23,671 nucleotides of DNA. Source: a virus. Positions 318-20,278 of this stretch are shown here, piece by piece. The DNA is taken from the IMG/VR virus record IMGVR_UViG_3300037847_008158, positions 2,626-26,296 of that record. One strand, given 5' to 3'. The notes below the pieces were generated by a model that did not search any database, had not been told where the DNA came from, and worked only from the letters and a program-made list of their open reading frames with translations. Positions within the stretch are counted from its first letter, which is position 1, and every line of letters begins with the position of its first letter. A program made the translations under genes and the position numbers.

Positions 318-1475
318 ATGGCACAATTACCAATTTGGGCAGGTAGTAGTAATTTTACAAGTAGCCAAACACCTTACGGATTTTATGATAGTGACACAGA
401 ATTTTCAGGTTCGGGTGTACACTCAGTAGATAGATTTGCAGATTGGGCGGCAAAGAGACTTGGATATCCTATTGTAGATGTAGAATTACAATCAGGTTCT
501 TTTTACGCTTGTTATGAAGAAGCTATAACTGAATATTCAGCACAAGTAAATCAATTTAATATTAAAGATAATTTACTATCTTTACAAGGACAATCTACAG
601 GTTCTAATTTAACACACAGACCTGTTACAAATTCTTTTGGTAGATTTATAACTCTTTCAGAACAATATGGTACAGAAGCAGGAGTAGGTGGTACGGTAGA
701 TTTTAAGACAGGTTCTATTGATATAACAAGTGGTTCACAAGAATATGATTTAAACGCTTTGTATGCTAATGTTTCTGAAAGTGGTAATGCTATAGAAGTT
801 AGAAAAGTCTATTATGAAGGACCTGCCGCAGTAAATAAATACTTTGACCCTTATGCAGGTGTTAATAGTAATAATTTAAATCTTTTAGATTCATTTGGTT
901 GGGGAAATTATTCACCCGCTATACAATTTTTATTGATGCCGATGTATGCAGATTTACTAAGAATACAAGGTATAGAATTAAATGACCAAATAAGAAAATC
1001 TGCTTATTCATTTGAATTAGTAAATAACAAATTGAGAATTTTTCCAAAACCTACAGAAGCATACACACTACATTTTAAGTATTTAGTAAAAGACGACAGA
1101 GGTAATCCTTTAAAAGGCAGTAGTGTAGGAAGAGTTAGTGATATAAGTAATGCACCATACGACAATATGGAGTTTAGACACATCAACGATGTTGGTAAAC
1201 AATGGATTAAAAAGTATGCACTTGCTCTTTGTAAAGAATTATTAGGAACAATAAGAAGTAAGTATGGTTCAGTTCCAATACCAAATGGTGATGTCACAAT
1301 GGATGGTGACACATTGAGAAACGAAGCCGCAGCTGAAAAAGAAACTTTAGTAACACAACTTAGGGAAATATTAGAACAGACAAGTAGAAAAGCAATGATG
1401 GAAGCAGAAAGAGATGAAGCAGAGGCATTGCAAGAGAAACTACAAAAAGTTCCTTACCCTATTTACATAGGATAA
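318..1475 (+). CDS. Putative neck / head-tail connector protein
   Basis: This 385-residue protein is the first gene after the late promoter, with GGAG 6 nt ahead of the ATG. Its N-terminus reads as a mixed-charge helical region (DRFADWAAKRLGYPIVDVE, then YACYEEAITEYSAQVNQ). A beta-rich centre follows, with LRIFPKPTEAYTLHFKYLVKD near residues 238-258. The C-terminus (about 295-375) is a long Lys/Glu/Ala-rich helix. The F-P-K-P-T turn followed by a hydrophobic strand is frequent in phage neck and connector proteins. In T4-like genomes the gp13/gp14 neck genes are located with gp15, and a gp15-like gene sits two genes downstream here, so a gp13-like neck role is the best guess. I do not recognise a decisive motif; it could be another head-completion protein. 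Confidence 0.5.
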   Translation: MAQLPIWAGSSNFTSSQTPYGFYDSDTEFSGSGVHSVDRFADWAAKRLGYPIVDVELQSGSFYACYEEAITEYSAQVNQFNIKDNLLSLQGQSTGSNLTHRPVTNSFGRFITLSEQYGTEAGVGGTVDFKTGSIDITSGSQEYDLNALYANVSESGNAIEVRKVYYEGPAAVNKYFDPYAGVNSNNLNLLDSFGWGNYSPAIQFLLMPMYADLLRIQGIELNDQIRKSAYSFELVNNKLRIFPKPTEAYTLHFKYLVKDDRGNPLKGSSVGRVSDISNAPYDNMEFRHINDVGKQWIKKYALALCKELLGTIRSKYGSVPIPNGDVTMDGDTLRNEAAAEKETLVTQLREILEQTSRKAMMEAERDEAEALQEKLQKVPYPIYIG

Positions 1476-1479
1476 CATA

Positions 1480-1965
1480 ATGGCAGGAAGATTTCTCTCA
1501 ACGAGAGATAACAACTTTTTTCATAAAGTTAATAAAGAACTACTTGGAGATTCTTTAAGAAGTAAAGAAGGTATCATAAATCAAGAAGTTACTATATATC
1601 AACTTGATGAAAGAGAAACACCAACTGATATGTACGGTGAAGCCGCATCAGGAAAATCATGGAAGCCAGGTGTTACTTTGAAATGTGTTATTGATGCAGA
1701 AGATTTTGATTTTAACACAGATGAATTTGGACCTGAAAGAAATCAAAATGTAACGTTTGCTTTTTTAAGAGATTCAGTTTTAGAATCTAAAATGGTAATC
1801 AGTTTAGGTGATGTTGTAAATTGGAATTACGCATATTGGACTATATCAAGTTTGAATGAAAATCAGTTAATAGGTGGTATGCAAGACCAAAATTTTTCAG
1901 TAGTAGCAAGTGCGTACTTAACACGTTTAAGTAGTTTAGGTATTGAACAAGTGAGAGCAATATAA
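1480..1965 (+). CDS. Putative head-closure / neck protein
   Basis: This 161-residue protein starts 4 nt after the upstream stop and its TAA overlaps the next ATG by one base (TAATG), so translation is probably coupled. The N-terminus (SLRSKEGIINQEVTIYQLDE) leads into a beta-rich body. A GDVVNWNYAYWTISSLNENQ segment lies at about residues 115-134; a Gly-Asp-x-hydrophobic strand followed by a Tyr/Trp-rich strand is common in small head-closure and stopper proteins of tailed phages. The size and position between a connector candidate and the gp15-like gene fit a protein sealing the portal before the tail joins. This assignment rests on context and general strand pattern, not on a diagnostic motif. 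There is no good Shine-Dalgarno sequence, which supports coupling to the preceding gene. Confidence 0.45.
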   Translation: MAGRFLSTRDNNFFHKVNKELLGDSLRSKEGIINQEVTIYQLDERETPTDMYGEAASGKSWKPGVTLKCVIDAEDFDFNTDEFGPERNQNVTFAFLRDSVLESKMVISLGDVVNWNYAYWTISSLNENQLIGGMQDQNFSVVASAYLTRLSSLGIEQVRAI

Positions 1966-2834
1966 TGGCAAGTAGAAACATAGAACAAAAATTACCAAGA
2001 CCTATAGAATATACAGAAAAAAGAACTATCAATAGGTCTCGTGAGTTACGAAGAGATAATGATGATTACAAAAAAAATTATTCTATTACTCTTATGGACC
2101 ACGATGCGGCTGTTATGTATTATTTTAATGAAGTAATTAGACCTGCTGTAGAAGAAAATGGTAATCAAGTAAAAGTTCCAATTATGTATGCTAATCCTGA
2201 AAGATGGGCGAATGTAAGAAAATCAGGTTGGATGGTTGACAGAAATAAAAAAAGAATTATTCCTGTTATAGCTTTTAGAAGAGTTTCTATTGAAAAAGAC
2301 CCTAACTATGCTATTGACAAATTAGATGCTAATAAGCCAAGACTTAGTTATCAATTTCAAAAGAAGTATTCTATTAATAATCGTTATGATTTAATGAGTG
2401 CTATGAACGGTGCACAACCAAGTAATGAATTTCATTCTGTAACTATGCCTGACTATATGATTATGAATTATGAAGCAATAGTTTGGACAAACTTTACAGA
2501 CCAAATGAATAGAATTATTGAGAAGATTAATTTTACAGATGGTGCTTATTGGGGAGACCCTGGTAAATTTAAATTTCGTGCAAGTATAGATAGTTTTCAA
2601 GATGCCTCTGAATATGAACAAGAAAGACTAATCAGAACTAATTTTAGTTTTACATTTAATGGGTATCTATTACCTGAAGAGTTCAATGGAGTGTCTAATA
2701 CACAAAGAGGATTTTCACCAAAATTTCTTACTAACTTTTCAGAAACATCAGCTAATATTAATCAAACTTTAACTAATAGTGATATTAATGATAACAATAA
2801 CTATGGTCCTCCTTCTGTAGAAGGACAGGTGTAG
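1965..2834 (+). CDS. 15: gp15-like tail terminator / sheath stabiliser
   Basis: This 289-residue protein matches the order of conserved patches I know from T4 gp15. First comes an N-terminal helix with YYFNEVIRPAVEE, then a strand VKVPIMYANPERW (T4: IRVPITYASKEHF). Next is a basic segment with IIPVIAFRRVSIEKD and a PDYMIMNYEAIVWTNFTDQM strand-helix (T4: IKMIYELSIFTRYEDDM) leading into RIIEKINF. The last patch is RTNFSFTFNGYLLPEE (T4: IEWSLTFEVNGWMYPP). In T4, gp15 forms the hexameric ring that ends the tail tube and sheath and docks the tail to the neck. The C-terminal 40 residues are Asn/Ser-rich and probably flexible. It overlaps the previous gene by 1 nt. The match is from remembered family sequence, but the patches occur in the same order, so I am fairly confident. 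Confidence 0.75.
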   Translation: MASRNIEQKLPRPIEYTEKRTINRSRELRRDNDDYKKNYSITLMDHDAAVMYYFNEVIRPAVEENGNQVKVPIMYANPERWANVRKSGWMVDRNKKRIIPVIAFRRVSIEKDPNYAIDKLDANKPRLSYQFQKKYSINNRYDLMSAMNGAQPSNEFHSVTMPDYMIMNYEAIVWTNFTDQMNRIIEKINFTDGAYWGDPGKFKFRASIDSFQDASEYEQERLIRTNFSFTFNGYLLPEEFNGVSNTQRGFSPKFLTNFSETSANINQTLTNSDINDNNNYGPPSVEGQV

Positions 2835-2843
2835 GAGAGAGTA

Positions 2844-3311
2844 ATGCCTGATGCTACAGATTTTTTAAGAACAAATCAAATAGGTCAACAAGAAGATTTA
2901 GAATTTACTAATGCAAATAGTGGACCTACTCTTTATGTTATGAGAGGACAAGGATTTCCTACAAGTTCAGCTGATACAAAAGCTATAGTCACTTATGGAT
3001 ACGTACAAGGAAATCTTTTAACTAAACAACAATATTTTTCAGGTAGTCAATCTGCTTCACTTGACGGAGATGGTAATCAAGTATTTCAAGTTAGTTTAGC
3101 AAATACAGGTTCACAAAATATTAATGGTGATACTTTAGAAATATATTTAAACGGATTAGCTTTGAGAAGAAATGAAGCACCTAATGTACACTCATCTGAT
3201 TATTTTAAATCTGATACTGATAAAGTTACTATTTACAAAGTAACAGGTTCTTATGGATATAATTTAAAAGATGAAGATAGAATAAAAATAAGGTTTAATC
3301 AAGGACTATAA
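2844..3311 (+). CDS. Small beta-rich virion protein A
   Basis: This 155-residue protein has a good ribosome site (AGGAGAG at 2832-2838). I do not recognise a named family. It is Gly/Ser/Asn-rich and beta-patterned. Its C-terminal half carries GDTLEIYLNGLALRRNE, then SSDYFKSDTDKVTIYKV, then YNLKDEDRIKIRFNQGL. This series (strand + hydrophobic-Asn-Gly, Asp-Tyr-Phe, strand, Asp-x-hydrophobic-x-I-x-[FY] strand) is repeated in the next gene, so the two are probably diverged copies of one small fibre or baseplate-type domain. It ends with TAATG, sharing one base with the next start. Position among tail-completion and fibre genes suggests a virion component, possibly an adaptor for the fibres downstream. 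Confidence 0.5.
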   Translation: MPDATDFLRTNQIGQQEDLEFTNANSGPTLYVMRGQGFPTSSADTKAIVTYGYVQGNLLTKQQYFSGSQSASLDGDGNQVFQVSLANTGSQNINGDTLEIYLNGLALRRNEAPNVHSSDYFKSDTDKVTIYKVTGSYGYNLKDEDRIKIRFNQGL

Positions 3312-3820
3312 TGCCAAACGCAACAGAAATAAGAAGAATTTTAGTAAACTCTATAGTATCTACAGATGATGGTAATAATGTTTCTGAAGATTTAGGATTC
3401 AAACATACTATAAAAGGTTCGTTTAAACCTTATAAATTACATTTGACAAGTAGTTTATCAACAAGAACCGAGGATATTGTATCACATAATCACATTAAAA
3501 CTTTGTTTGAAGATAGAAGAGAATTTTTAGATGCTGATGCACCTGTGATTAGTGATGCTACTAAACAAGTTTATGATATAAATGTTCCTGATGATTTTAA
3601 AGTAGTGACAGGAAGTGTTACTTTTAAAATAAATGGATTAGAACAGCAGACTACAGAAGACCAAAAAACTGATAGAGATGTTGTTACAGATTATTATTTA
3701 TCAGGCTCAAAATTTGAACAATTAGTTTTGTATAAACCACGCGCAGACCATAGTGGTTTGGCAGTAGATAATCAGGACACCTTACTAATTAAGTATAGAG
3801 TGGAGAAAGTAATTGGCTAA
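3311..3820 (+). CDS. Small beta-rich virion protein B (related to protein A)
   Basis: This 169-residue protein starts at the A shared with the preceding stop codon. The C-terminal half has VTFKINGLEQQTTED, VTDYYLSGSKFEQLVLYKP and DNQDTLLIKYRVEKV. These match the strand-NGL, D-Y-Y/F, and D-x-L-x-I-[KR]-[YF] pattern of the upstream protein in the same order. The N-terminus differs (MPNATEIRRILVNSIVS), with a Thr/Ser-rich strand region after it. It is probably a structural protein of the tail or fibre attachment site. It overlaps the next gene by 8 nt. No enzymatic motif is visible. Confidence 0.5.
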   Translation: MPNATEIRRILVNSIVSTDDGNNVSEDLGFKHTIKGSFKPYKLHLTSSLSTRTEDIVSHNHIKTLFEDRREFLDADAPVISDATKQVYDINVPDDFKVVTGSVTFKINGLEQQTTEDQKTDRDVVTDYYLSGSKFEQLVLYKPRADHSGLAVDNQDTLLIKYRVEKVIG

Positions 3821-4580
3821 AATAGATTTAACAAGACAGGCAAAAGCGCCACAACAAGCAGGACAATTTTTAAGAACTACGAATGTCACAAGTTCACTAA
3901 CAAGTGAATATGAGTGGGAGACGGCAGATTTTAATTTTACGGGTTCTTTTACAGGCTCGTTTTCAGGTTCTTTTGAAATTGATAGAATACACGGACTCGG
4001 AATCGTTAGTAGTTCTACTCAAATAGTATCACTTCTTCCTGCGGGAAGCATAAGTAGTTCAGCACAGATAGCAGCTGCTGTAAGTGGTTCTCTTTCAAAA
4101 GCACATCTCGCAGCAAAAATACCGGAGATTGTAAGTGGAGCGGCACAGATTAAGTCACTCTTACCATTAGGAATACGTTCCGGTTCAGAAGCGAGTGATG
4201 ATAGAGACCAACAGACATTGAGTTATAATCCTACTACTTATGGACTAAGTATTTCAAATGGTAACTCTGTAGATTTATCAGGACTCGCCGGAGGAGGCGG
4301 AGGCGGTGGTGGTTCAGGCGATGGATTAGCAATAACTGCATCTGCTGAAGGTGTTGTGTTGAGTCAAAACTTTAGGTCAATTAATTTTGATGGCGATGGT
4401 ATAAAAGCATCAAGTAATGGAAATGCTATAACATTAACCGGTACAACAGGTTCTCGTGTAGTAACAAGTAACGTAACAGCATCAATGTTTTTATTACGTG
4501 AAATACAAGGTAGCACTCCACCCGCAACAAAAGGCGGTGTAATGTTTAGTGGTAGTGCTTTTTATTTAGGATTTCAATAG
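3813..4580 (+). CDS. Gly/Ser-rich tail-fibre-type protein
   Basis: This 255-residue protein starts at TTG 3813, chosen because GGAG (3802-3805) stands at a normal distance and the reading (MAKIDLTRQ) begins before the conserved part. It has FTGSFTGSFSGSF at 42-54. The IVSSSTQIVSLLPAGSI segment (64-80) is repeated in looser form at 107-120 as IVSGAAQIKSLLPLG. The V-S-[SG]-x-x-Q-[IV] repeat is a hallmark I associate with marine myovirus fibre proteins. A Gly run at 160-167 looks like a flexible hinge between an N-terminal attachment half and a C-terminal beta half. The C-terminus (STPPATKGGVMFSGSAFYLGF) resembles fibre tips. It is last before the second late promoter, with no terminator between. 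Receptor specificity cannot be judged. Confidence 0.6.
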   Translation: MAKIDLTRQAKAPQQAGQFLRTTNVTSSLTSEYEWETADFNFTGSFTGSFSGSFEIDRIHGLGIVSSSTQIVSLLPAGSISSSAQIAAAVSGSLSKAHLAAKIPEIVSGAAQIKSLLPLGIRSGSEASDDRDQQTLSYNPTTYGLSISNGNSVDLSGLAGGGGGGGGSGDGLAITASAEGVVLSQNFRSINFDGDGIKASSNGNAITLTGTTGSRVVTSNVTASMFLLREIQGSTPPATKGGVMFSGSAFYLGFQ

Positions 4581-4607
4581 AGATGGTTGAAATTTTTGAC
4601 AATATTA

Positions 4608-4619
4608 TATTTATAAATG
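4608..4619 (+). promoter_or_regulatory. Late-type promoter, copy 2
   Basis: TATTTATAAATG lies 25 nt before the ATG at 4645 and contains the T4-like TATAAAT core. It differs by one base from the copies at 283, 17502 and 23504. GAAATTTTT (4589-4597) stands 19 nt upstream. The leader holds GGGAG (4632-4636) as ribosome site. Confidence 0.78.
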
Positions 4620-4644
4620 ATAGCCGAAATCAGGGAGAAAACTA

Positions 4645-6015
4645 ATGGCAAGTTGGAAAAAAATAATAGTATCAGGCAGTAGAGCGCATCTTAATGATGT
4701 AACTGCATCTTTCTTTAAAGGAGATGGTTCAGGTCTGACTAATGTCGGTGGTACAATATCAAATGATTTAGTAGTAGATAACGCTACTATTCAATTCAAT
4801 TCAGGTACTACATATGATGGTTCCTCTGAAAAAACTTTGTCTATCAAAGATGGAGGTGTTGATGCAGATGCTCTCGCAACAGGAGTAGCAGGTACAGGTA
4901 TCGCAGGTGGCGGTGGAACAGCACTTTCAGTAGATTTAAATGAAGTAGCCGCAGCTGTTGTAAATGTAGCAAATGATAGTATAGCAATAATTGATGCTGA
5001 TGGTTCTAATGCTACAAAGAAAGAATCTATTGCAGACCTTGTATCAGGAATAGCAGGTACAGGTTTAGATGCGGCAAGTGGTCAATTATCTGTAGATGTT
5101 TCTGATTTTATGAGCACCGGTGCTGATAACAGAGTTTTAACTGCTACAGGAACAGATGCTCTTCAAGGTGAAGCAAATCTTACTTTTGATGGAAGTGTTT
5201 TACTTGCAGGAGGAGCAAGTGCAGTAGTAAGTTCTTCAAAAATTGTATCAGAAGGTCACATAAGTGGTTCTTTGATTAGTGGTTCATTTTATGGTGATGG
5301 TTCAAACATTACAGGTGTATCTGCTACAGGTTTAAACATAGACGCTTTTGGTGCAGATGGTACAAGTGATACTATAGCAAGTGATGATAAATTTATATTT
5401 AGTGATGCGGGTACAGAAAAAAGAGCAAACATAAGTCAACTTGCGGCACCATTAGTTGGAACAGGTTTAGAGGCTAATAGTGGTACAATAAGAATAGCTG
5501 CGGCCGCAGCAGGTACAGGTTTAACAGGTGGTGCGGGTTCAGCATTAGATGTTGATTTATCAGGTGAATCTGCTGTATCAATCGGTGCAGGAACATCTAC
5601 CGTAACTTTTGGAGACAACGTTAGAATCAATGGTGACTTAACAATATTTGGTGATACGGTACAACAAAACGTTGCAAATTTATTAGTAGAAGATAAATTC
5701 ATTTTACTTAATAGTGGCTCTGCTTCAGGTGATGGTGGTATCATAGTACAAACTAACGCATCTTATGCGGGTGCGGCTTTAGTATTTGATGATGACATTA
5801 ATAGATGGGCAGTTGGTGCTGAAGATAAATTAGCACAAAATGCTACATCAGTAGACTCTGCCGCAGCAGGATTTCAATTTATAGTTTCTGTTTCAGGTTC
5901 AGCTAAAGACCCAATCGATGGCTCAAATCCAAATGACTTTGGAACAGCCGCAGCAAATAGAATTGGTATGATGCACGTTAATACTGCAACAGGAGATATA
6001 TTTATTTACTCTTAA
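4645..6015 (+). CDS. Tail-fibre-type structural protein with SWKK N-terminus
   Basis: This 456-residue protein begins MASWKKIIVSGSRAHLNDV, a short N-terminal signature seen in fibre proteins of marine T4-like phages and shared with the gene at 6494; it is probably the virion-attachment or assembly tag. The body is Gly/Ala/Ser/Asp-rich beta structure. There are two copies of a GSF-x-GDGS-x-T-V element (about 22-34 and 213-225) and several G-T-G-[IL]-x(n)-G-x-L-x-V-D units (about 83-98, 138-151, 272-285, 290-304). A conserved segment GDLTIFGDTVQQNVANLL followed by VEDKFILLNSGSA lies at 330-360, where a stretch of similar sequence occurs in many such fibres. The Ala/Gly repeats suggest a trimeric fibre shaft. 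No chaperone or protease domain is visible at the C-terminus. Confidence 0.7.
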   Translation: MASWKKIIVSGSRAHLNDVTASFFKGDGSGLTNVGGTISNDLVVDNATIQFNSGTTYDGSSEKTLSIKDGGVDADALATGVAGTGIAGGGGTALSVDLNEVAAAVVNVANDSIAIIDADGSNATKKESIADLVSGIAGTGLDAASGQLSVDVSDFMSTGADNRVLTATGTDALQGEANLTFDGSVLLAGGASAVVSSSKIVSEGHISGSLISGSFYGDGSNITGVSATGLNIDAFGADGTSDTIASDDKFIFSDAGTEKRANISQLAAPLVGTGLEANSGTIRIAAAAAGTGLTGGAGSALDVDLSGESAVSIGAGTSTVTFGDNVRINGDLTIFGDTVQQNVANLLVEDKFILLNSGSASGDGGIIVQTNASYAGAALVFDDDINRWAVGAEDKLAQNATSVDSAAAGFQFIVSVSGSAKDPIDGSNPNDFGTAAANRIGMMHVNTATGDIFIYS

Positions 6016-6478: not shown

Positions 6479-6493
6479 TAGGAGAAGTAGTAA

Positions 6494-7558
6494 ATGCCAA
6501 GTTGGAAAAAAGTAATAACATCAGGCAGTAACGCAGTACTAAACGATATCACATCAAGTGGTGACATTAAAAACACCGAAGGTGATTTTACAATCGATGC
6601 AGTAGGTGATATTATTTTAGATGCAGACAATGCAGATGTAATTCTAAAAGATGGTGGAACTGAATTTGGTAGGTTAAGTAGAGTATCTTCTGATTTAGTT
6701 ATAAAATCTGCAACATCAAATAAAGACGTATTAATTAAAGGTAATGATGGTGGTTCAACTATAACTTCATTACAATTAGATATGTCTGATGCGGGAAGTG
6801 CGACATTTAATAACCACATTACAGCAAGTGGTAACGTAAAGACCGACTATAAAGGCAGGATGATTAGTAACCTTACTGAAGTAATAGAGGTTACGGTAGT
6901 TGATGATGGTGGTAATCATTTCGCTTTTGAAGGAGCAACAACTCCTAATTTAGTAGTTAGTGAAGGAAAAACTTATAGATTTGACCAATCAGATAGTTCA
7001 AATTCTACACATCCATTTGCATTTAGTTTGACAGAAGACGGCACAACATATACAACAGGTGTTACAACACGTGGAACTGCAGGAAGCGCAGGAGCTTATA
7101 CTGAATTAAAAGTAACAAAAGCAACTGCTGGTAAATTATTTTATAAGTGTACTGCTCATAGTGGTATGGGTAATCAAGGTAATATACTTAAAAATGATTT
7201 AACAAACTTTGGCGGAAACATAAAAGTTGATGCGGCGTTTACCGTAACACAAACAGCTTCTTCTATTACAGGCGCTAATAATATTGACTTATCTGCAAAA
7301 AACAATTACAATCTTACTTTAACCGGTAACGTCACTTTAACTCCAACAAACCTAACAGGTCGTGAAGGACAAAGTGGACTTATCGCTCTTATACAAGATA
7401 GTTCAGGTGGTCATTCAATAACTCTTAATTCATTGTTTAAAACCCCTCGAGGAAGTGCTATAACATTTGACACAACCGCCAACGGCATATCTTTAATGTC
7501 GTACTACGTGGTAAACACAAGTAACGTGGCAGTCAATTATTTAGGCCCGTTTTCATAA
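6494..7558 (+). CDS. Fibre protein with inserted cupredoxin-like domain
   Basis: This 354-residue protein begins MPSWKKVITSGSNAVLNDI, sharing the N-terminal tag of the fibre gene at 4645. Residues 20-118 form a repetitive beta region (GDF-x-I-D-A, GDI-x-L-D-A, ADV-x-L-K-D), typical of phage fibre shafts. Residues 131-233 are a separate domain ending in FYKCTAHSGMGNQG. That ending and the earlier STHPFAF give His173, Cys219, His222 and Met225, the ligand set of type-1 copper proteins; the C-x2-H-x2-M spacing is that of amicyanin. Similar domains occur, as far as I recall, in other marine phage structural proteins. Residues 234-354 are a beta-rich C-terminal region, perhaps the tip. The ribosome site is AGGAG (6480-6484). 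Whether copper is bound cannot be told from sequence; the fold may serve only as a surface-binding module. Confidence 0.7.
   Translation: MPSWKKVITSGSNAVLNDITSSGDIKNTEGDFTIDAVGDIILDADNADVILKDGGTEFGRLSRVSSDLVIKSATSNKDVLIKGNDGGSTITSLQLDMSDAGSATFNNHITASGNVKTDYKGRMISNLTEVIEVTVVDDGGNHFAFEGATTPNLVVSEGKTYRFDQSDSSNSTHPFAFSLTEDGTTYTTGVTTRGTAGSAGAYTELKVTKATAGKLFYKCTAHSGMGNQGNILKNDLTNFGGNIKVDAAFTVTQTASSITGANNIDLSAKNNYNLTLTGNVTLTPTNLTGREGQSGLIALIQDSSGGHSITLNSLFKTPRGSAITFDTTANGISLMSYYVVNTSNVAVNYLGPFS
6884..7192 (+). other. Cupredoxin-like domain (residues 131-233 of the fibre protein)
   Basis: The segment runs from IEVTVVDDGG to GNIL. It shows the order of a cupredoxin: first strands, a Gly-Lys-Thr-Tyr-Arg-Phe strand (158-163), S-N-S-T-H-P-F with His173, a loop with a Gly/Thr/Ala-rich stretch, then KLFYKCTAHSGMGN with Cys219, His222 and Met225. 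The Y-[KY]-C-x-x-H-x-x-M-x-G motif is the most diagnostic part. Confidence 0.7.
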
Positions 7559-7575: not shown

Positions 7576-10500
7576 ATGGCGAACGGCGCTTTTGGATTTC
7601 TTGAAGAATTAAAATTTAGTACAGAGTTTAACACAACTAAAGCTACTAATACCACCTTAATCACCTCAAAATCAACTGCTACTACATTAGCAACCGCTAC
7701 TACGTTAGCTACTACAACAACTTTTAATACTACAAAAGAAACAACTACAGAATATAACACTACTAAAGATACCACTACAACTTTTAATACTACACGAGAA
7801 ACAACTACAGAGTATATTACTTCAAACGTAACACAGACTACTCTTAATACAACTGCAGACACTATTACAACTTACAATACTATTACAACATATGATACCG
7901 CTACTACATTAGCAACTGCTACAAGCAAAACTACAACTACTACGTTTGAAACAAGTAAGACTACAACTACAACTTACAATACTACTAAAACAACCACAAC
8001 AACTTTTAACACTACTAAAGAAACAACAACCACTTTCAATACTACAGAAACCACGGCCACAACTTTTAACACCATAACGACTTACGATACTGCTACTACT
8101 TTAGCAACTGCTACAACTTTATCTACAATTACAACTTTTGAAACTTCAAAAGATACTACGACTACGTTTAATACTACAAAGTCAACTACAACTACTTACA
8201 ACACTACCCTTGCTACGGCCACTACTTTAGCAACTATAACTTCAATAGTAACACAGACAACATATGATACCACGCAAAGTACAACAACTACGTTTAATAC
8301 CATAACAACTTATGATACTGCTACAACGTTAGCTACTGCTACAAGTAAAACCACAACGACTACTTTTGAAACTACATTAGCTACAATTACAACTTTTAAT
8401 ACTACTAAATCAACCACAACTACATATGAAACCACATTAGCTACTGCTACAACTTTAGCAACTATAACTTCAATAGTAACACAGACAACTTACAATACTA
8501 CTCAAAGTACCACAACTACATTTAATACTATTACAACTTATAATACAGCTACAACATTAGCTACTGCTACAAGTAAATCTACGACCACAACTTTTGAAAC
8601 ACAGAAAACAACTACGACTACTTTCAATACCACCAAGTCAACTACAACAACTTTTAACACTACTAAAAGTACTACAACTACTTTTGAAACTACACAAAGT
8701 ACTACTACTACTTTTAACACAATTACAACGTATAACACCGCTACTACATTAGCAACTGCTACTACCTTGTCAACTATTACAACTTTTGAAACAACTAAAA
8801 GTACTACCACAACTTTTAATACTACTAAAGATACTACTACGACTTTCAACACTACAAGAAGTACCATTGAACAACGTTCTACAAGTACATCTAAGACAAC
8901 TACGACTACATTTAATACCACACAAAGCACAACTACAACTTTTAATACTATAACAACTTATGATACTGCTACTACATTAGCAACTGCTACAACTAAAAAT
9001 ACCACAACAACTTACGAAACTACGTTATCTACAATTACAACTTTTAATACTACTAAAAGTACGATAACTACTTATGAGACAACTTTATCTACTGCTACAA
9101 CTTTAGCAACTATAACTTCAATAGTAACGCAGACAACTTTTAATACCACACAAAGTACGATAACTACGTTCAATACAATCACAGCGTATAATACAATCAC
9201 AACTTTTAATACTACGAAGTCTACTACCACAACTTTTAATACTACTAAGAGTACGACAACTACATTTAATACTACAAAGTCCACTACAACGACTTTTAAC
9301 ACTACACAAGCCACTACAACTACATTTAATACTATTACAACATACGATACTGCTACTACATTAGCAACCGCTACAAGTAAGACCACAACGACTACTTTTG
9401 AAACTACGTTGGCTACAATTACAACTTTTAATACTACGAAGTCAACTATAACTACATATGAAACTACGTTAGCTACTGCAACCACTTTAGCAACTATAAC
9501 CTCAATAGTAACTTCAACGACTTTTAATACTACTCAGAGCACCACAACTACGTTTAATACCATTACAACATATTCTACGATTACAACTTTTCAAACACAG
9601 AAAACAACTACGACTACTTTTGAAACTACTAAGAGTACTACTACAACTTTTAATACTTCGAAAACAACTATTGAACAACGTTCTACGATTACATCGAAAA
9701 CAACTACAACAACTTTTGAAACTACTAAAGATACAATTACGGTCTATAATACAATTACAAAATATAATACTATTACGACTTACGAAACTTCAAAGACAAC
9801 TACAACAACTTTTAATACTACAAAGTCTACGACAACAACCTTTAATACCACAAAGTCTACAATTACAACCTACAATACTACACAGACGACCACTACAACG
9901 TTTAATACGATTACAACATATAATACTGCTACTACTTTAGCTACTGCTACAAGTAAGACTACAACAACTACATTTAATACCACAAAGTCTACGACTACAA
10001 CCTTTAATACTACTAAAGATACTACTACGACTTTCAACACCACAAGGTCAACTATTGAAACACGAAGTACTTCAACTTCAAAAACAACTACCACAACTTT
10101 TGAAACTACAAAAACAACCACTACAACGTTTAATACAATTACAACGTATGCTACTATTACAACTTATGAGACTTCAAAGTCAACAACTACAACCTATGAA
10201 ACTTCAAAGTCAACAACTACAACTTTTAATACCACAAGAAGTACTATTGAACAACGTTCTACGATTACATCAAAAACAACTACAACAACTTTTAACACTA
10301 CAAAAGATACAACTACGGTTTATAATACAATAACCAAGTATAATACGATTACAACCTATGAAACTTCGAAGAGTACGACAACAACTTTTAATACCTCAAG
10401 AATAACTATTGAGACAAGGAATACCTCTACTTCAAGAAATACTACTACAACTTTTAACACTACACAAACGACTACTACCACGTTTAACACTATTACAACT

Positions 10501-13500
10501 TATGCTACAGCAACGACATTGGCAACAGCTACATCAAAAAGTACTACAACAACTTTTAATACTTCTAAATCAACTACAACCGTATTTAGTACAATTACAA
10601 AATTTAATACTATTACAACTTTCGCAACTTCAAAGTCAACAACTACTACCTTTAACACTACTTTGGCTACTGCGACAAGTAGGAATACTATAACTTCAAT
10701 AGTAACCTCAACGGTCTACAATACTACTCAAAGTACCACAACTACTTTTAATACGATTACAACGTATTCTACTATTACAACCTTTGAAACTACGTTATCT
10801 ACTATTACAACTTTTAATACTTCGAAGTCAACTACTACAACTTTTAATACAAGTAAAAATACTTTAGAAGTAAGGTCAACTATAACTTCAATAGTAACAC
10901 AGACGACATATAATACTACACAGAATACTACCACAACGTTTAATACAATTACAACGTATGCCACTATTACAACATTTGCAACTTCAAAGTCAACTATAAC
11001 GACTTTTAATACTACGTTAGCAACTTCAACTTCAAGAAATACTGCTACATCAAAAACCACTACAACTACTTTTAATACAAGTAAAAATACTTTAGAAGTA
11101 AGGGCCACTTCTACTTCGAAAAGTACCATAACAACTTTTAATACAAGTAGAAACACTATTGAACAAAGAACCACATCTACTTCAAAAACTACTACAACCG
11201 TATTCAGCACAATTACTACTTATGCGACGATTACAACTTTTAATACTTCGAAGTTAACGGTATCTTCTTTTAATACTACACTATCAACTAAAGAAGTGAG
11301 GTCTACTTCTACTTCGAAGAATACTTCAACGGTTTATAATACTACTTTAACAACTGCAACGGTTTTCAGTACTATTACGGTTTATTCTACTATTACAACT
11401 TTTAATACTTCGAAGTCAACTATCACGACCTACAACACCACAAGGTCAACTATTGAAACAAGAAATACTATTACTTCGAAGTCAACTATAACGACTTTTA
11501 ATACTACATTAGCAACTATTGAATCAAGAAATACTTCTACTTCAAAAACTACGTCAACTGCGTATGCTACTATTACTACTAAATCAACTATTACAACTTT
11601 TAATACAAGCAGAAATACTATTGAAACAAGAGCTACTTCTACTTCGAAAAGTACAACTACTACTTTTGGTACAATTACAACTTATTCTACGATTACAACT
11701 TTTAATACTTCGAAGTCAACTACAACTACTTATAACACTTCGAAGTCAACTACTACGGTTTATAGTACAATTACATCATACTCTACTATTACAACGTTTG
11801 CAACTTCGAAGTCAACCACAACTATATTTAGTACTATTACTGCTTATAATACTTCAACGGTTTTTAATACCACGTTAGCAACAATTACGGTTTACTCTAC
11901 GATTACAACGTATGCTACTATTACAACTTTTAATACAAGTAAAAATACTTTAGAAACAAGAAATACAATTACTTCTAAGAATACTATTGAATCAAGGTCA
12001 ACCGCTACTTCAATAGCTACGATTACAACTTTTGAAACGAGTAGAAACACTATTGAATCAAGGTCAACGGCTACTTCAAAAAATACAACTACAATTTATA
12101 GTACAACTACAACGTATTCTACTATCACAACTTATCAAACTTATAGAAGCACTATTACTGCTTTTAATACTATTACCGTATATACAGGTATTTCATTGTT
12201 TAATACTTCAAAATCTGCAAGTACATCGAAGTCAACTATTGAATCAAGAAATACAACAACAACTTTTAATACAAGCAGGACTACAACATACGCAACATCA
12301 AAGTCTACAAATACAACTACTTTAACAACATTTAATACAATTACAACGTATAATACGACATATTATACTTTTTATAAAACGTTGTATAGAACTTATTTTA
12401 ATACTTATTTTCCTTTTTATAATCCACCATTTAAAATTACATATAGAAATACAAGTAGAAATACCTACAGAAGTACTTCGAAGAGTACTCAAATAGCAAC
12501 TTCGACTTCAAGAAATACTATTACGCAAACTATAACGACTTTTAATACGGTAAGGACTACAACGTTTGAAACTACTAAGGACACCACAACTATATATAGC
12601 ACTATTACTACTTTTAATACGATTGTCACATTCCAAACTTCGATTGCTACAATTTTACAACGGGCTACTTCTACTACAGGTAGTACTAATACGGTTTATA
12701 ATACCACGCTCTCAACCATTGAATCGAGGAGTACGATTACATCAAAGTCAACTACAACAACTTTTAATACTACTACGACATATACCACCTCGACAACTTT
12801 TAATACTACACAAGCCACTACAACGACTTTTAACACAATTACATCTTATACCACTTCAACCGTATTTGCTACACTTACTGCATACATTACAAGTACGACC
12901 TACAATACTACAAGGTCAACTATTGAGACACGTGCTACGATTACATCGAAGTCAACTATAACTACATTTAGTACAATTATACCTAATACTTTAGAAACAC
13001 GTTCTACCATTACTTCTAAAAATACGACTACAACTTATAATACCACAAGGTCAACTATCGAATCACGTGCAACGATTACATCGAAAAATACAACTACTAC
13101 ATATAATACTACAAAGAGTACTACAACGACTTACAACACCACAAGGTCAACTATTGAAACGAGAACTACTGCTACTTCAAAAAGTACTACAACTACGTAT
13201 AATACGATTACTACTTATACCACTTCGACAACTTTTAATACTACAAAGTCTACGACTACTGCATATGCTACTATTACTTCGAAGAATACAACAACTACAT
13301 TTAGTACTACTACGATTTATTCTACGATTACAACTTTTAATACTACAAAAAGCACTACGACTGCTTATAGTACGATTACAACGTATGCTACTATTACAAC
13401 TTTTAATACCACTAAAAGTACTACTACAGAATATAACACTACGAGGTCAACGATTGAGTCACGTGCAACGATTACTTCAAAGAATACCACAACTACTTAT

Positions 13501-16500
13501 AATACAAGTAAAAGTACTACTACGGTTTTTAATACAAATACTACATATAATACTATTACAACGTTTATTACTACGATAGGCACCTCTACAACTTATAATA
13601 CTACAAGGTCAACTATTGAGACACGTGCAACGATTACTTCAAAGGATACCACAACTACTTACGGTACAACTACAACTTATACCACTTCAACAACTTTCAA
13701 TACTACAAAAAATACAACTACGGTTTATAATACTATTACTGCATATATTACAAGTACAACTTTTAATACTACAAAAGATACTACTACAACCTATGCGACT
13801 ATAACTACATTTAATACAATAACAACTTTTAATACTACAAAGAGTACTATAACAACTTACAACACCACAAGGTCAACTATTGAAACAAGAGCAACGTCTA
13901 CTTCAAAAAATACTATCACAACGTTTGAGACTAATAAAAACACTAACACCGTTTTCTCAACTATTACTGCATATATTACGAGTACAACTTTCAATACTAC
14001 AAAGAGTACTACAACTACTTTTAATACTACGAAGTCAACTATTACTAAGTTTAATACCACAAAGTCAACTATTGAAACAAGAGCGACTTCGACTTCAAAA
14101 AGCACTATTACGACTTTTGAGACTACTAAAAACACTAACACCGTTTTCTCAACTATTACAACATTTAACACAATAACAACTTTTAATACCACAAAGTCTA
14201 CGACTACAACTTACAACACCACAACATCTACTCTTACAAGTAAAAACACTATAACTACAAAGAGTACTACAACAACTTACAATACCACAAAATCTACGAC
14301 TACAACGTATAATACTATTACTACGTACAATACTGCTACAACTTTAGCAACTGCTACTTCAAAAAATACTACTACGACTTTTGAAACTTCAAAAAATACT
14401 ACAACTACGTTTACTACGATTACAGAATACTCAACCACAACTACATTTAATACGACTAAAACTACAACTACTACATTTAATACTACCAAAAGTACTTCAG
14501 AATCAAGAGCGACTTCTACTTCAAAGACCACCACAACTACTTTTGAAACTGATAAAGTAACTAATACGGTTTACTCGACTATTACAGCATATGCAACTAT
14601 AACAACTTTTAACACTACTAAAAGTACTACAACTACGTTTAATACTAATACTACAACTACGACAACTTTTAACACTACAAAGTCAACTATTGAAACAAGA
14701 GCGACTTCGACTTCAAAAAATACTACAACTACTTTTGAAACTGATAAAGTAACTAATACGGTTTACACAACTATTACAACTTACTCAACTATAACAACGT
14801 TTGAAACTACAAAAACGACCACTACAACTTTCAATACAACAAAGAGTACAACAACTACTTTTGAAACTTCAAAAGACACTACTACAACGTTTAATACAAT
14901 TACAACTTATAACACAGCAACGACATTAGCAACTGCTACTTCAAAAAACACCACAACAACGTTTGAAACTACAAAGTCAACCACTACGACTTTCAATACA
15001 ACAAAGTCTACAACTACAACTTTTAATACTACTAAAGATACGACAACTACGTTCAATACTACTACTACAACTTTAGAATCAAGGTCAACTTCTACTTCAA
15101 AGTCAACCACAACAACTTTTAATACTACAAAAATTACGAACACCGTATATGAAACGATTACTATTTATGAAACTACAACTACGTTTAATACTACCAAGAC
15201 AACTACAACAACTTTTAATACCTCTACGTTAACCACTACGAAGTATAATACTACGAGGTCAACTATTGAAACAAGAGCAACGTCTACTTCAAAAAGTACT
15301 ATAACAACCTTTGAAACAAATAAAAATACTAATACGGTTTTTTCAACTATTACGACTTTTAATACAATAACGACTTTCAATACTACAAAGTCTACAACTA
15401 CAACTTTTAATACTACGAAGTCAACTATTACTACGTTTAATACTACGCAGGCTACGACAACTACGTTTAATACAATTACAACTTACAATACAGCTACCAC
15501 ATTAGCTACTGCTACTTCAAAAAGTACTACAACAACTTTTGAAACAACTAAGAGTACGACAACAACCTTTAATACTACAAAGTCAACTACAACTACTTTT
15601 AATACTACAAAGTCAACTACTACAACTTATGAAACTACTAAAAGTACTGAGACAAAATTAGCAACTGCTACAACATTAGCAACTATTACAACTTTTGAAA
15701 CCGTAAAGAATACGAATACGGTTTTTAACACTATTACAACATTTAACACAATAACAACTTTTAATACTACAAAATCAACCACTACAACTTTTAATACTAC
15801 TAAGAGTACGACAACAACCTTTAATACTACAAAGAGTACGACAACTACATTTAATACGATTACTACTTACAACACAGCTACAACATTAGCTACTGCTACT
15901 ACTTTAGCAACTATTACAACTTTTGAAACTTCAAAAGATACTACGACTACTTATAGTACAATTACATCGTATGCAACTATAACAACTTTTGAAACTACAA
16001 AAACAACCACTACGACTTTTAATACTACGAAGACTACAACTACGACCTTTAACACTACTCAAAGTACCACAACTACTTTCAATACAATTACTACATATGA
16101 TACTGCTACGACTTTAGCAACTGCTACTTCAAAAAATACTACTACGACTTTTGAAACTACTAAGAGTACTACTACAACTTTTAATACTACAAAAACGACT
16201 ACTACGACTTTTGAAACTTCTAAGTTAACTACTACTAAGTTTAATACTACAACAAGTACCATAACAACTTATAACACGATTACAACTTATGATACTGCAA
16301 CGACATTGGCAACCGCTACAACATTAGCAACTATCACAACTTTTGAAACCGTAAAGAATACAAATACCGTATTCAATACTATTACAACGTTTAATACTAT
16401 TACAACGTTTAATACTACGACCACTACGACAACTACATTTAATACTACGAAGTCAACTATTACTAAGTTTAATACTACGCAGGCTACTACAACTACTTTC

Positions 16501-17472
16501 AACACAATTACTACGTACAATACTGCTACAACATTAGCTACTGCTACTACTTTAGCAACTATTACAACTTTTGAAACCATAAAGAATACAAATACCGTAT
16601 TCAATACTATTACGACTTTTAATACTATTACAACGTTTGAAACAAATACAACAACTACTACGACTTTCAATACAACAAAGTCTACAACTACAACTTACAA
16701 TACTACTCAAAGTACTACAACTACTTTTAACACTATAACAACTTATAATACGGCTACTACTTTAGTAACTGCTACTTCAATAGCTACGATTACAACTTTT
16801 GAAACCGTAAAGAATACAAATACGGTTTTTGAAACAATAACAACTTTTAATACTATTACAACATTTGAAACAAATACAACAACTACTACAACTTTTAATA
16901 CTACTAAGACAACCACTACGACTTTTAATACTACTCAAAGCACTACAACCACGTTTAATACAATTACAACTTATAACACAGCTACTACATTAGCAACGTC
17001 TACAAGTAAAAATACTTCAACAACTTTTGAAACAAGTAAAAGTACAACGACTACGTTTAATACTACTAAGACAACCACTACGACTTTTGAAACAAGTAAG
17101 ACCGTAACTACGGTTTACAACACTACACTACCTACTACAACTACGTTTAATACAATTACAACTTATAATACTGCTACTACTTTAGCAACAGCAACATCTA
17201 AGTCTACAACTACTACCTTTGAAACAACTAAAAACACTAATACGGTTTATAATACTACTACGACCACTACGACAACTTTTGAAACAACTAAGACTACTAC
17301 AACGACTTTCAATACGACAAAAACTACAATTACAACTTTTGAAACAACAAAAGATACAATTACAACGTTTAATACGATTACAACTTTTGATACTATAACA
17401 GAATATACAACAACTTTTGAAACTATTACGACTTACAATACGACTCGAATAACAAGTTACTACGTATCCTAA
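7576..17472 (+). CDS. Giant Thr/Asn-rich repeat protein, probable long virion fibre (3298 aa)
   Basis: This single open frame of 3298 codons starts at ATG 7576 with AAGGGA (7564-7569) as ribosome site. About 15 unique residues (MANGAFGFLEELKF) precede the repeats, and a short end (NTTRITSYYVS) follows them. Everything between is built from tetrads such as F-N-T-T and hexads such as K-S-T-T-T-T, L-A-T-A-T-T, F-N-T-I-T-T, R-S-T-I-E-T. By eye about half the residues are Thr; I noticed no Cys, Trp or His. All spacings between the anchor residues are even (4, 6, 10, 12), which suits alternating in/out residues of beta-strands and suggests a solenoid or fibrous beta-structure. A Tyr/Phe/Pro-rich break lies near the middle (residues 1592-1624). 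It sits after fibre genes and before a glycan operon, so a surface fibre is likely. I do not recognise a named family. A tape measure is unlikely, since those are helical. Confidence 0.8.
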   Translation: MANGAFGFLEELKFSTEFNTTKATNTTLITSKSTATTLATATTLATTTTFNTTKETTTEYNTTKDTTTTFNTTRETTTEYITSNVTQTTLNTTADTITTYNTITTYDTATTLATATSKTTTTTFETSKTTTTTYNTTKTTTTTFNTTKETTTTFNTTETTATTFNTITTYDTATTLATATTLSTITTFETSKDTTTTFNTTKSTTTTYNTTLATATTLATITSIVTQTTYDTTQSTTTTFNTITTYDTATTLATATSKTTTTTFETTLATITTFNTTKSTTTTYETTLATATTLATITSIVTQTTYNTTQSTTTTFNTITTYNTATTLATATSKSTTTTFETQKTTTTTFNTTKSTTTTFNTTKSTTTTFETTQSTTTTFNTITTYNTATTLATATTLSTITTFETTKSTTTTFNTTKDTTTTFNTTRSTIEQRSTSTSKTTTTTFNTTQSTTTTFNTITTYDTATTLATATTKNTTTTYETTLSTITTFNTTKSTITTYETTLSTATTLATITSIVTQTTFNTTQSTITTFNTITAYNTITTFNTTKSTTTTFNTTKSTTTTFNTTKSTTTTFNTTQATTTTFNTITTYDTATTLATATSKTTTTTFETTLATITTFNTTKSTITTYETTLATATTLATITSIVTSTTFNTTQSTTTTFNTITTYSTITTFQTQKTTTTTFETTKSTTTTFNTSKTTIEQRSTITSKTTTTTFETTKDTITVYNTITKYNTITTYETSKTTTTTFNTTKSTTTTFNTTKSTITTYNTTQTTTTTFNTITTYNTATTLATATSKTTTTTFNTTKSTTTTFNTTKDTTTTFNTTRSTIETRSTSTSKTTTTTFETTKTTTTTFNTITTYATITTYETSKSTTTTYETSKSTTTTFNTTRSTIEQRSTITSKTTTTTFNTTKDTTTVYNTITKYNTITTYETSKSTTTTFNTSRITIETRNTSTSRNTTTTFNTTQTTTTTFNTITTYATATTLATATSKSTTTTFNTSKSTTTVFSTITKFNTITTFATSKSTTTTFNTTLATATSRNTITSIVTSTVYNTTQSTTTTFNTITTYSTITTFETTLSTITTFNTSKSTTTTFNTSKNTLEVRSTITSIVTQTTYNTTQNTTTTFNTITTYATITTFATSKSTITTFNTTLATSTSRNTATSKTTTTTFNTSKNTLEVRATSTSKSTITTFNTSRNTIEQRTTSTSKTTTTVFSTITTYATITTFNTSKLTVSSFNTTLSTKEVRSTSTSKNTSTVYNTTLTTATVFSTITVYSTITTFNTSKSTITTYNTTRSTIETRNTITSKSTITTFNTTLATIESRNTSTSKTTSTAYATITTKSTITTFNTSRNTIETRATSTSKSTTTTFGTITTYSTITTFNTSKSTTTTYNTSKSTTTVYSTITSYSTITTFATSKSTTTIFSTITAYNTSTVFNTTLATITVYSTITTYATITTFNTSKNTLETRNTITSKNTIESRSTATSIATITTFETSRNTIESRSTATSKNTTTIYSTTTTYSTITTYQTYRSTITAFNTITVYTGISLFNTSKSASTSKSTIESRNTTTTFNTSRTTTYATSKSTNTTTLTTFNTITTYNTTYYTFYKTLYRTYFNTYFPFYNPPFKITYRNTSRNTYRSTSKSTQIATSTSRNTITQTITTFNTVRTTTFETTKDTTTIYSTITTFNTIVTFQTSIATILQRATSTTGSTNTVYNTTLSTIESRSTITSKSTTTTFNTTTTYTTSTTFNTTQATTTTFNTITSYTTSTVFATLTAYITSTTYNTTRSTIETRATITSKSTITTFSTIIPNTLETRSTITSKNTTTTYNTTRSTIESRATITSKNTTTTYNTTKSTTTTYNTTRSTIETRTTATSKSTTTTYNTITTYTTSTTFNTTKSTTTAYATITSKNTTTTFSTTTIYSTITTFNTTKSTTTAYSTITTYATITTFNTTKSTTTEYNTTRSTIESRATITSKNTTTTYNTSKSTTTVFNTNTTYNTITTFITTIGTSTTYNTTRSTIETRATITSKDTTTTYGTTTTYTTSTTFNTTKNTTTVYNTITAYITSTTFNTTKDTTTTYATITTFNTITTFNTTKSTITTYNTTRSTIETRATSTSKNTITTFETNKNTNTVFSTITAYITSTTFNTTKSTTTTFNTTKSTITKFNTTKSTIETRATSTSKSTITTFETTKNTNTVFSTITTFNTITTFNTTKSTTTTYNTTTSTLTSKNTITTKSTTTTYNTTKSTTTTYNTITTYNTATTLATATSKNTTTTFETSKNTTTTFTTITEYSTTTTFNTTKTTTTTFNTTKSTSESRATSTSKTTTTTFETDKVTNTVYSTITAYATITTFNTTKSTTTTFNTNTTTTTTFNTTKSTIETRATSTSKNTTTTFETDKVTNTVYTTITTYSTITTFETTKTTTTTFNTTKSTTTTFETSKDTTTTFNTITTYNTATTLATATSKNTTTTFETTKSTTTTFNTTKSTTTTFNTTKDTTTTFNTTTTTLESRSTSTSKSTTTTFNTTKITNTVYETITIYETTTTFNTTKTTTTTFNTSTLTTTKYNTTRSTIETRATSTSKSTITTFETNKNTNTVFSTITTFNTITTFNTTKSTTTTFNTTKSTITTFNTTQATTTTFNTITTYNTATTLATATSKSTTTTFETTKSTTTTFNTTKSTTTTFNTTKSTTTTYETTKSTETKLATATTLATITTFETVKNTNTVFNTITTFNTITTFNTTKSTTTTFNTTKSTTTTFNTTKSTTTTFNTITTYNTATTLATATTLATITTFETSKDTTTTYSTITSYATITTFETTKTTTTTFNTTKTTTTTFNTTQSTTTTFNTITTYDTATTLATATSKNTTTTFETTKSTTTTFNTTKTTTTTFETSKLTTTKFNTTTSTITTYNTITTYDTATTLATATTLATITTFETVKNTNTVFNTITTFNTITTFNTTTTTTTTFNTTKSTITKFNTTQATTTTFNTITTYNTATTLATATTLATITTFETIKNTNTVFNTITTFNTITTFETNTTTTTTFNTTKSTTTTYNTTQSTTTTFNTITTYNTATTLVTATSIATITTFETVKNTNTVFETITTFNTITTFETNTTTTTTFNTTKTTTTTFNTTQSTTTTFNTITTYNTATTLATSTSKNTSTTFETSKSTTTTFNTTKTTTTTFETSKTVTTVYNTTLPTTTTFNTITTYNTATTLATATSKSTTTTFETTKNTNTVYNTTTTTTTTFETTKTTTTTFNTTKTTITTFETTKDTITTFNTITTFDTITEYTTTFETITTYNTTRITSYYVS
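7640..17450 (+). repeat. Degenerate 12/18/30-nt coding repeat array
   Basis: The DNA repeats with 30-nt units (10 codons) mixed with 18- and 12-nt units, matching the hexad/tetrad protein grammar. Successive copies differ mainly at third codon positions: Thr is written with ACA, ACT, ACG and ACC, Asn with AAT/AAC, Phe mostly TTT. Protein copies are therefore far more alike than DNA copies. Recurrent longer cassettes, for example F-N-T-I-T-T-Y-[DN]-T-A-T-T-L-A-T-A-T, occur before about 10.6 kb and again after about 14.3 kb. Confidence 0.9.
12349..12447 (+). other. Tyr/Phe/Pro-rich central interruption of the giant protein (residues 1592-1624)
   Basis: The repeats break into an aromatic segment with TFYKTLYRTYFNTYFPFYN, then Pro-Pro-Phe-Lys-Ile-Thr-Tyr. 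It has a 4-residue rhythm (T-F-Y-K, T-L-Y-R, T-Y-F-N) and one of the rare proline clusters of the protein. The gene midpoint is near 12524, so this lies almost at the centre. It may be a hinge, a kink or a binding site. Confidence 0.75.
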
Positions 17473-19932: not shown

Positions 19933-19933
19933 T

Positions 19934-20278
19934 ATGCACACAGCAGGAAAAGTATGGGGCAAGACAGCTAATATATTTTCTAATCCTAATTTTGAAGTAC
20001 ATAGGATTGAAGTGAATAAAGGCGGTTATTGTTCTAAACATAAACACAAATATAAATTCAATGCTTTCTATGTAGAGAGTGGTGAATTAGAAATTATAAT
20101 TTATAAAAATGATTACGATTTAGTAGATACTACGGTTCTTAAAGCAGGTGATATGACTATCGCAAAACCTGGAGAGTATCATAGTTTTAAAGCAAATGCA
20201 AAAACAATTTGTTATGAATTTTATTGGGCTGAATTAAATCACGATGATATTGAAAGAGAATCTGTAGGTGGTATGTAG
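19934..20278 (+). CDS. Single-domain cupin, sugar-isomerase-like
   Basis: This 114-residue protein starts one base after the kdsA stop. It has the two cupin motifs: G-x(4)-K-H-K-H (31-38, His36 and His38) with Asn43 where a Glu ligand is usual, then G50; and G-D-M-T-I-A-K-P-G-x-x-H (72-83, His83). Length and layout resemble the C-terminal cupin of mannose-6-phosphate isomerase/GDP-mannose pyrophosphorylase and single-domain sugar-phosphate isomerases or epimerases. Loss of the Glu leaves three His as candidate metal ligands. In this operon it may isomerise or epimerise a sugar or sugar nucleotide, or only bind it. It is soluble. Its TAG stop overlaps the next gene's GTG start by one base. Confidence 0.75.
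   Translation: MHTAGKVWGKTANIFSNPNFEVHRIEVNKGGYCSKHKHKYKFNAFYVESGELEIIIYKNDYDLVDTTVLKAGDMTIAKPGEYHSFKANAKTICYEFYWAELNHDDIERESVGGM

Follow-up and report, generated by a model that had tools for sequence, protein, structure and literature searches.

Metal sites in phage virions have rarely been demonstrated, and the marine discussion that we found concerns iron. According to the available part of PMC11705849, metal (iron) sites of the HxH type are proposed for phage tail fibres (T4 gp37, alterophage R22Y), including marine ones, together with a hypothesis on host binding. Copper enters the field by another route, since some of the phages considered below, e.g., P-SSM2, encode the copper protein plastocyanin (PetE; available part of PMC3037559). 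A cupredoxin within a phage virion is not described in the open-licence papers found. That is, it is absent from the available parts of PMC11705849, PMC3037559, PMC10665884, PMC9004378 and PMC3909814, and a term search of PMC7029224 was without match.

Here, we analysed a stretch of 23,671 nucleotides (in the following called the window), which covers bases 2626-26296 of an IMG/VR record of 26,296 bases. Its features are summarized in Table 1. The open reading frame (ORF) 6494-7558 is a real gene by ordinary signs, i.e., its ATG, a preceding AGGAG, its length and its stop. Its product matches the tail fibre families PHROG 30742 (E 6.4e-26) and PHROG 693 (E 2.7e-10). The genes at 318-6015, which include a head-tail adaptor-like gene (PHROG 211, E 2.1e-11), have the appearance of a neck and tail region as in T4-like myoviruses, such that homology to tail-fibre families coincides with a place among tail genes, as is to be expected for a phage tail fibre. 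In another locus (L006), a relative is followed downstream by a sheath-like gene (PHROG 23, E 3.2e-4). Given the PHROG matches, the neighbours and the relatives annotated as tail fibres, we infer that ORF 6494-7558 encodes a virion fibre.

Table 1. Features of the fibre gene and its neighbourhood (window positions; residue numbers refer to the 354-aa protein).
Feature	Position	Strand	Basis
Tail sheath stabiliser-like protein, marks T4-like tail gene region	1965..2834	+	PHROG 227, E 5.2e-5
Neighbouring fibre-like protein, same N-terminal anchor	4645..6015	+	N-terminal identity
AGGAG, probable ribosome binding site	6480..6484	+	Read in sequence
Tail-fibre-like protein with cupredoxin domain, 354 aa	6494..7558	+	ATG at 6494, stop at 7558; PHROG matches
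N-terminal 22 aa, proposed virion anchor common to neighbouring fibre genes	6494..6559	+	N-terminal identity
Predicted cupredoxin-fold domain, about aa 128-234	6875..7195	+	AlphaFold2 model mf9ee6d92cf09; Foldseek and VIA matches
His173 codon, putative first equatorial ligand	7010..7012	+	Alignment of relatives; plastocyanin His aligned in profile match
Cys219 codon, putative thiolate ligand	7148..7150	+	Alignment of relatives; plastocyanin Cys aligned in profile match
His222 codon, putative second equatorial His	7157..7159	+	Alignment of relatives; plastocyanin His aligned in profile match
Met225 codon, putative axial ligand	7166..7168	+	Alignment of relatives
C-terminal region, aa 240-354, similar in part to phage proteins annotated as fibre or as hypothetical	7211..7558	+	tblastn

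The protein can be divided into three parts. The first 22 aa show 68% identity to aa 1-22 of ORF 4645-6015, and starts of the same SWKK..SGS type are also found in four further loci (L001, L002, L003, L006). Over aa 1-112, the identity to the N-terminus of an S74-chaperone fibre from locus L006 is 58%. For the C-terminal region, tblastn finds Aphanizomenon phage CL131 (over aa 248-354) and the fiber protein of Roseobacter phage CRP-811 (over aa 260-339). Taken together with the domain described below, these matches suggest a fibre composed of a shared anchor, a cupredoxin-like domain and a C-terminal part that resembles segments of other phage proteins, some of them annotated as fibres. The cupredoxin domain was not found in the neighbouring fibre-like ORF 4645-6015, and no inverted repeats were found near the borders of the fibre gene.

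The adjoining ORF 7576-17472 (+) encodes 3298 aa, of which 1604 are Thr. It is built from repeats, e.g., TTTTFNTTKS, with autocorrelation peaks at 6, 10, 16 and 22, and is possibly a giant beta-rich fibre. It has no Pfam match, and none of the 113 stretches obtained by scanning a 117-aa piece of it against viral contigs was confirmed as a relative. Further downstream, the ORFs of 18526-23194 (+) resemble a KdsA-type synthase, a cupin, a radical SAM protein, a short-chain dehydrogenase and glycosyltransferases, which, from reading by eye, would make this a phage-borne cluster for sugars or surface polysaccharides.

The AlphaFold2 model of aa 122-244, for which 96 IMG/VR rows were in the alignment, shows 9 strands (from E7-16 to E109-113 in the numbering of 6857-7225) with pLDDT 89.3 and pTM 0.82. 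The ten-residue blocks that hold the ligands have mean pLDDT values of 96, 95 and 87. A preliminary description of the window had called the region 6884-7192 a cupredoxin-like domain; the prediction yields a cupredoxin fold with nearly the same limits. Foldseek against the PDB as well as VIA-align return only cupredoxins or cupredoxin-domain enzymes among the matches listed (50/50 each), for Foldseek including rusticyanin, pseudoazurin, copper nitrite reductases and laccases. The best Foldseek match is rusticyanin 1e30 (E 1.6e-3, prob 1.00, TM 0.48 by query), while rank 7 is taken by 2ux6, a pseudoazurin with an engineered amicyanin loop. VIA-align reports 2dv6 with Z 8.5 (rmsd 3.6 over 102) and rusticyanin 2cal with Z 8.1 (rmsd 3.2 over 101). 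As modelled, the domain thus belongs to the cupredoxin fold superfamily with moderate similarity, i.e., TM by query of 0.38-0.54 (Foldseek) and a middling VIA Z of up to 8.5.

The placement within a curated family is another matter. A profile search of PDB sequences weakly aligns H52, C98 and H101 of the domain with the His, Cys and His of plastocyanin (3cvb E 0.13; the pseudoazurin 3tu6 is found at E 0.023). The Copper-bind model PF00127 scores 14.1 bits for the whole protein and 16.3 bits for the domain, below its gathering cutoff of 21.2; among 54 relatives, 6 match at E 0.1 (best 0.0018). For the amicyanin model TIGR02657, the window domain has no match at E 0.1, and 2/54 relatives match (best E 0.021). 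Membership in amicyanins or PF00127 was therefore not adopted. C-x2-H-x2-M is the spacing of the amicyanin ligand loop and is present from Cys219 to Met225, such that the earlier label "amicyanin-like" holds for the spacing and does not extend to membership by curated models. As a side observation, 5/54 relatives have a match to PF25489 (At5g54830-like) at an E of 0.1 or below, the best being 1.4e-4. When scored singly, three members reach 16-17.5 bits for a cutoff of 27, and such sub-threshold matches of A1 members (e.g., L083:6118-6486 and L087:6139-6504) hint at relatives outside prokaryotes.

All four residues named in the preliminary description are present exactly as read there. That is, the complete type-1 set of His, Cys, His and axial Met occupies the equivalent sequence places, and Cys219 is the sole Cys of the protein. 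A chance motif was rejected, as H-x30..70-C-x2-H-x2-M is found in only 15/200,000 shuffles of the same protein and is repeated by the relatives. The other His of the domain, His142, was rejected as a ligand since this column holds K in 60/87 rows and H in 6. The C-x2-H-x2-M loop is invariant in alignment A1; its 54 rows were chosen for keeping all four ligands, as were those of alignment A2, so that invariant ligand columns prove nothing alone.

The surroundings of the ligands differ in part from those of classical copper carriers. Within 110 nonredundant four-ligand rows, 98% have a Tyr two residues before the Cys, and 88% of the nonredundant four-ligand rows have a Pro directly after the His173 position. 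In plastocyanin and amicyanin this His is followed by Asn, while Pro at this place is known from multicopper oxidases. Electron-transfer cupredoxins carry a hydrophobic docking patch around the exposed His. Here, the residues beside His222 are polar or small in the alignment of relatives (S/A/R then G/Y/N), which makes a classical electron-transfer role less likely.

Many relatives of the domain are found in marine phages. At a threshold of E 1e-3, tblastn against 50,697 phage records identifies 33 with the domain. The named hosts or organisms of these matches are Prochlorococcus, Synechococcus, Pelagibacter and Methylophilales, and the remaining marine records are uncultured or lack an assignment. 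A tblastn query limited to the 45-residue stretch between the ligands gave no match. Within IMG/VR, at least 587 loci encode a relative (587 of the 600 candidate stretches listed). The respective viral contig scans provide the best 80 stretches per scan, and some of their patterns include ligand letters, e.g., GMGNQGNI, YPSAHPFA and APTLYYYC. When 19 phage records chosen for having a match were searched whole, all were found to have the domain, in 45 places at E 1e-3. Cultured carriers are P-SSM2, P-TIM68, Bellamy, Mosig and Melnitz, and carrier genes are annotated as tail fibre, gp9 baseplate wedge tail fibre connector, proximal tail fibre, baseplate wedge or virion structural protein, with some hypothetical. 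The Foldseek viral library adds 67 matches at E 1e-3, including structural proteins of P-SSM2, S-TIM5 and P-TIM68. The occurrence of such domains in marine phage structural proteins, put forward in the preliminary description, is thus borne out by tblastn, whole-record and structural-library matches.

The closest copies, with 74 to 82% identity over the alignment, reside in fibres of 495 aa and 1782 aa. The 82% identity extends over 131 aa inside the 1782-aa fibre of locus L003, which is otherwise unlike the window protein. Since the closest copies are in fibres sharing little else with the window protein, the domain appears to move as a module. By its distribution among sequences, it is a mobile module of marine phage tail fibres and baseplate proteins. 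In S-SM1 and P-SSM7, it is located at the C-terminal end of gp9, which together with its position in fibres points to the tail periphery.

Next to phages, we considered cellular genomes. A scan of genome contigs with the window domain gave 132 stretches, none of which was confirmed, while a more typical relative yielded 30 loci. Among 34 rows (window included), 31 show H-C-H-M, one shows H-C-H-Q, and two are ligand-less first copies that adjoin intact second copies in Flavobacteriaceae. Lipobox-like starts, read from the sequences, give an exported appearance to proteins of Marine Group II (L469, L470) and SAR86 (L475, L477), where the lipoprotein-like L475 has an axial Gln in place of Met. 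Several of the metagenome-assembled contigs are phage-like by their proteins (L451-L453, L457, L476), so "cellular" is true for only part of the 30 loci. The domain-bearing proteins of L451, L452, L453, L457 and L476 are small and phage-like and share a start (ASGR/ASGK...), with the cupredoxin domain mostly C-terminal. The domain is apparently also part of exported proteins of marine bacteria and archaea, and given these carriers and the viral-looking contigs, marine cells and phages may have in common a family of exported cupredoxins.

An indication for a function of the site comes from ligand retention. Profiles were built in which X replaced the residues of the four ligand columns and were iterated over all sequences, such that the ligands cannot aid detection. 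A first round on 101 records gave 109/121 matches with H-C-H-M, and the other 12 were partial or ligand-poor. The round of 429 records gave 743 rows, of which 29 lack a letter at a ligand column and were left out. Among the 714 others, 580 rows keep all four ligands, 130 keep none, 4 keep three, and not a single row keeps one or two. When reduced to 138 nonredundant rows at 80% identity, 110, 25 and 3 keep four, none and three, respectively. The final round adds named phages and the genome-contig loci; 779 of 791 rows were used, as 12 were short or unplaceable. Locus L081, in which the window recurs, was dropped. Among these 779 domain rows, 615 keep four, 5 three, 5 two, 2 one and 152 none of the ligands, where the share of ligand-less copies is no natural frequency since such copies were sought on purpose. 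At 75% identity, the respective counts for four, three, two, one and none are 97, 4, 4, 2 and 33 of 140 rows.

With 12 of 779 rows in between, free loss of single ligands, which had been named beforehand as the observation that would speak against a copper site, was not seen with the masked profiles and is rejected. The same distribution supports the earlier view that an intact set is more than a fold relic needs. The three-ligand rows lack the axial Met only, which is replaced by His (L240, L244), Ser (L319) or Gln (L475) or is shifted by one (L229). Axial variation with fixed equatorial H-C-H is allowed by type-1 chemistry. Most two-ligand rows are second copies interrupted by an insert (S-CAM4 / ACG-2014h type). 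When the ligand columns are left out of tree building, at least 6, 7, 6 and 7 changes are needed for H173, C219, H222 and M225, respectively, and 9 for the whole state. As reconstructed there, ligand losses are few and mostly shared, so co-loss rests on few independent events.

The ligand-less copies are themselves informative. Both an intact and a ligand-less copy are found in one polypeptide for 147 of 621 domain-bearing ORFs, which is not a count of independent genes as loci may overlap. Such pairs within one chain provide a natural control. The largest ligand-less class (alignment A3, 64% mean column identity) corresponds to the second of the copies carried by the baseplate wedge protein T4-GC399 (phrog_708, E 2.2e-53), where Cys, His and Met became, e.g., Ala, Ser and Leu in S-SM1. 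Examples of ligand-less paralogues in cyanophage baseplate wedge proteins (phrog_708) are L097:4990-5382 and L355:2492-2905. With regard to the intact class, hhalign reports a probability of 99.1%, and the model of the ligand-less class is again a cupredoxin (pLDDT 90.5) that matches rusticyanin and, best in VIA, auracyanin A (Z 8.1, rmsd 2.8 over 100). Conserved ligand-less copies indicate that the fold does not need the ligands, and joint retention of the ligands thus points to metal binding. By this pattern, the four ligands would serve one task together; metal binding is the simplest such task, and copper the likeliest metal. We therefore consider it likely that the domain binds metal through this set.

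The same ligand-less class speaks for a module that works without any metal, i.e., a beta-sandwich spacer or adhesin in which packing or the shape of the loops would preserve the four residues, as phage tail proteins use the fold without ligands. Moreover, fibres fold in a copper-poor cytoplasm. However, residues needed just for packing would be expected to be replaced singly, whereas nearly all rows keep either four (615) or none (152), with 12 of 779 in between, and where a ligand varies by itself it is the axial one. We thus regard a metal-free module as unlikely. Points against copper are the moderate fold scores, the scores below the cutoffs of curated families, the Pro after the first His, the intermediate rows and the small number of independent losses. 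Another comes from S-SM1 T4-GC969, which is named as detected in the purified virion in the available part of PMC3037559; no other carrier is linked to a purified virion by a paper found here. Its gene (locus L446) holds only a ligand-less copy.

Our preferred reading is that the window encodes a cupredoxin module within a virion fibre which probably holds one copper ion per chain via a type-1-like site and serves as a structural or adhesive knob. For the putative site, we infer copper occupancy. We adopt the structural or adhesive role as a choice rather than as a result, and taken by itself we hold it with somewhat less than even confidence. In terms of mechanism, the fibre would be built in the host cytoplasm without copper, and copper would be loaded after lysis, from debris or seawater. 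The ion would then tie the C-x2-H-x2-M loop, which lies between the last strands, to the HP loop, and copper would thereby rigidify the exposed end of the domain into a stable knob for host-surface adhesion.

A bolder version extends this to many marine phage particles, among T4-like cyanophages, pelagiphages and methylophages. These would be copper proteins, with a distinct cupredoxin family in fibres and connectors whose complete type-1 sites load outside the cell and act at first host contact by copper- or redox-dependent attachment, while ligand-less sisters in the same chains would be purely structural; this we consider doubtful. The redox component can also be taken alone, i.e., copper could switch between Cu(II) and Cu(I) by reacting with reductants, with superoxide or with a redox partner on the host surface, and thereby trigger or tune irreversible attachment. 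The complete type-1 set including the axial Met, the frequent Tyr before the Cys and the many carriers that infect photosynthetic hosts are in line with such sensing. Still, the surroundings of His222 are unlike a docking patch, carriers also infect Pelagibacter and Methylophilales, the domain is also found in lipoprotein-like proteins of archaea and SAR86, and no partner domain was seen, which renders redox sensing rather improbable.

Another metal, such as Zn(II), could sit in the site as a structural staple, given that the same ligands can hold other soft or borderline metals and that zinc is more available during assembly. The conserved axial Met and the C-x2-H-x2-M loop match copper cupredoxins instead, and we see little chance for this variant. 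Very improbable is a copper "Trojan horse", i.e., fibre-bound copper recognised by a metal uptake receptor of the host: the idea has a model in iron-bearing HxH tail fibres (available part of PMC11705849) and fits a domain that sits in fibres and baseplate-fibre connectors, but no link to a receptor or to copper uptake was found, and a buried cupredoxin site does not present its ion freely.

The distribution of the copper-binding candidate suggests that many ocean phage particles carry a predicted metal site. If fibres of abundant marine phages indeed bear a conserved copper-type site, phage adsorption and virion stability would be linked to seawater copper, and a class of copper-binding ligands would be added to ocean chemistry.

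Compared with known copper proteins, the phage domain shares its predicted fold as well as the four ligand types and their order with amicyanin, pseudoazurin and plastocyanin. It differs from them by residing in a fibre instead of being a free periplasmic carrier, by falling outside the curated models, by its His-Pro, by the polar loop at the exposed His and by having no partner. Rusticyanin and auracyanin provide the best fold matches (auracyanin for the ligand-less class), but have longer ligand loops, are electron carriers and show about 20% identity. The PetE of cyanophages is a separate metabolic gene and not a fibre module. Among phage families, PHROG 30742, 693, 677 and 708 (tail fibre, gp9 connector, baseplate wedge) contain the domain; these families are defined on whole proteins, take their names from annotation and carry no metal function. 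Finally, the HxH sites of T4 gp37 and R22Y hold iron in octahedral coordination, whereas the phage domain presents a putative mononuclear H-C-H-M site within one beta-sandwich.
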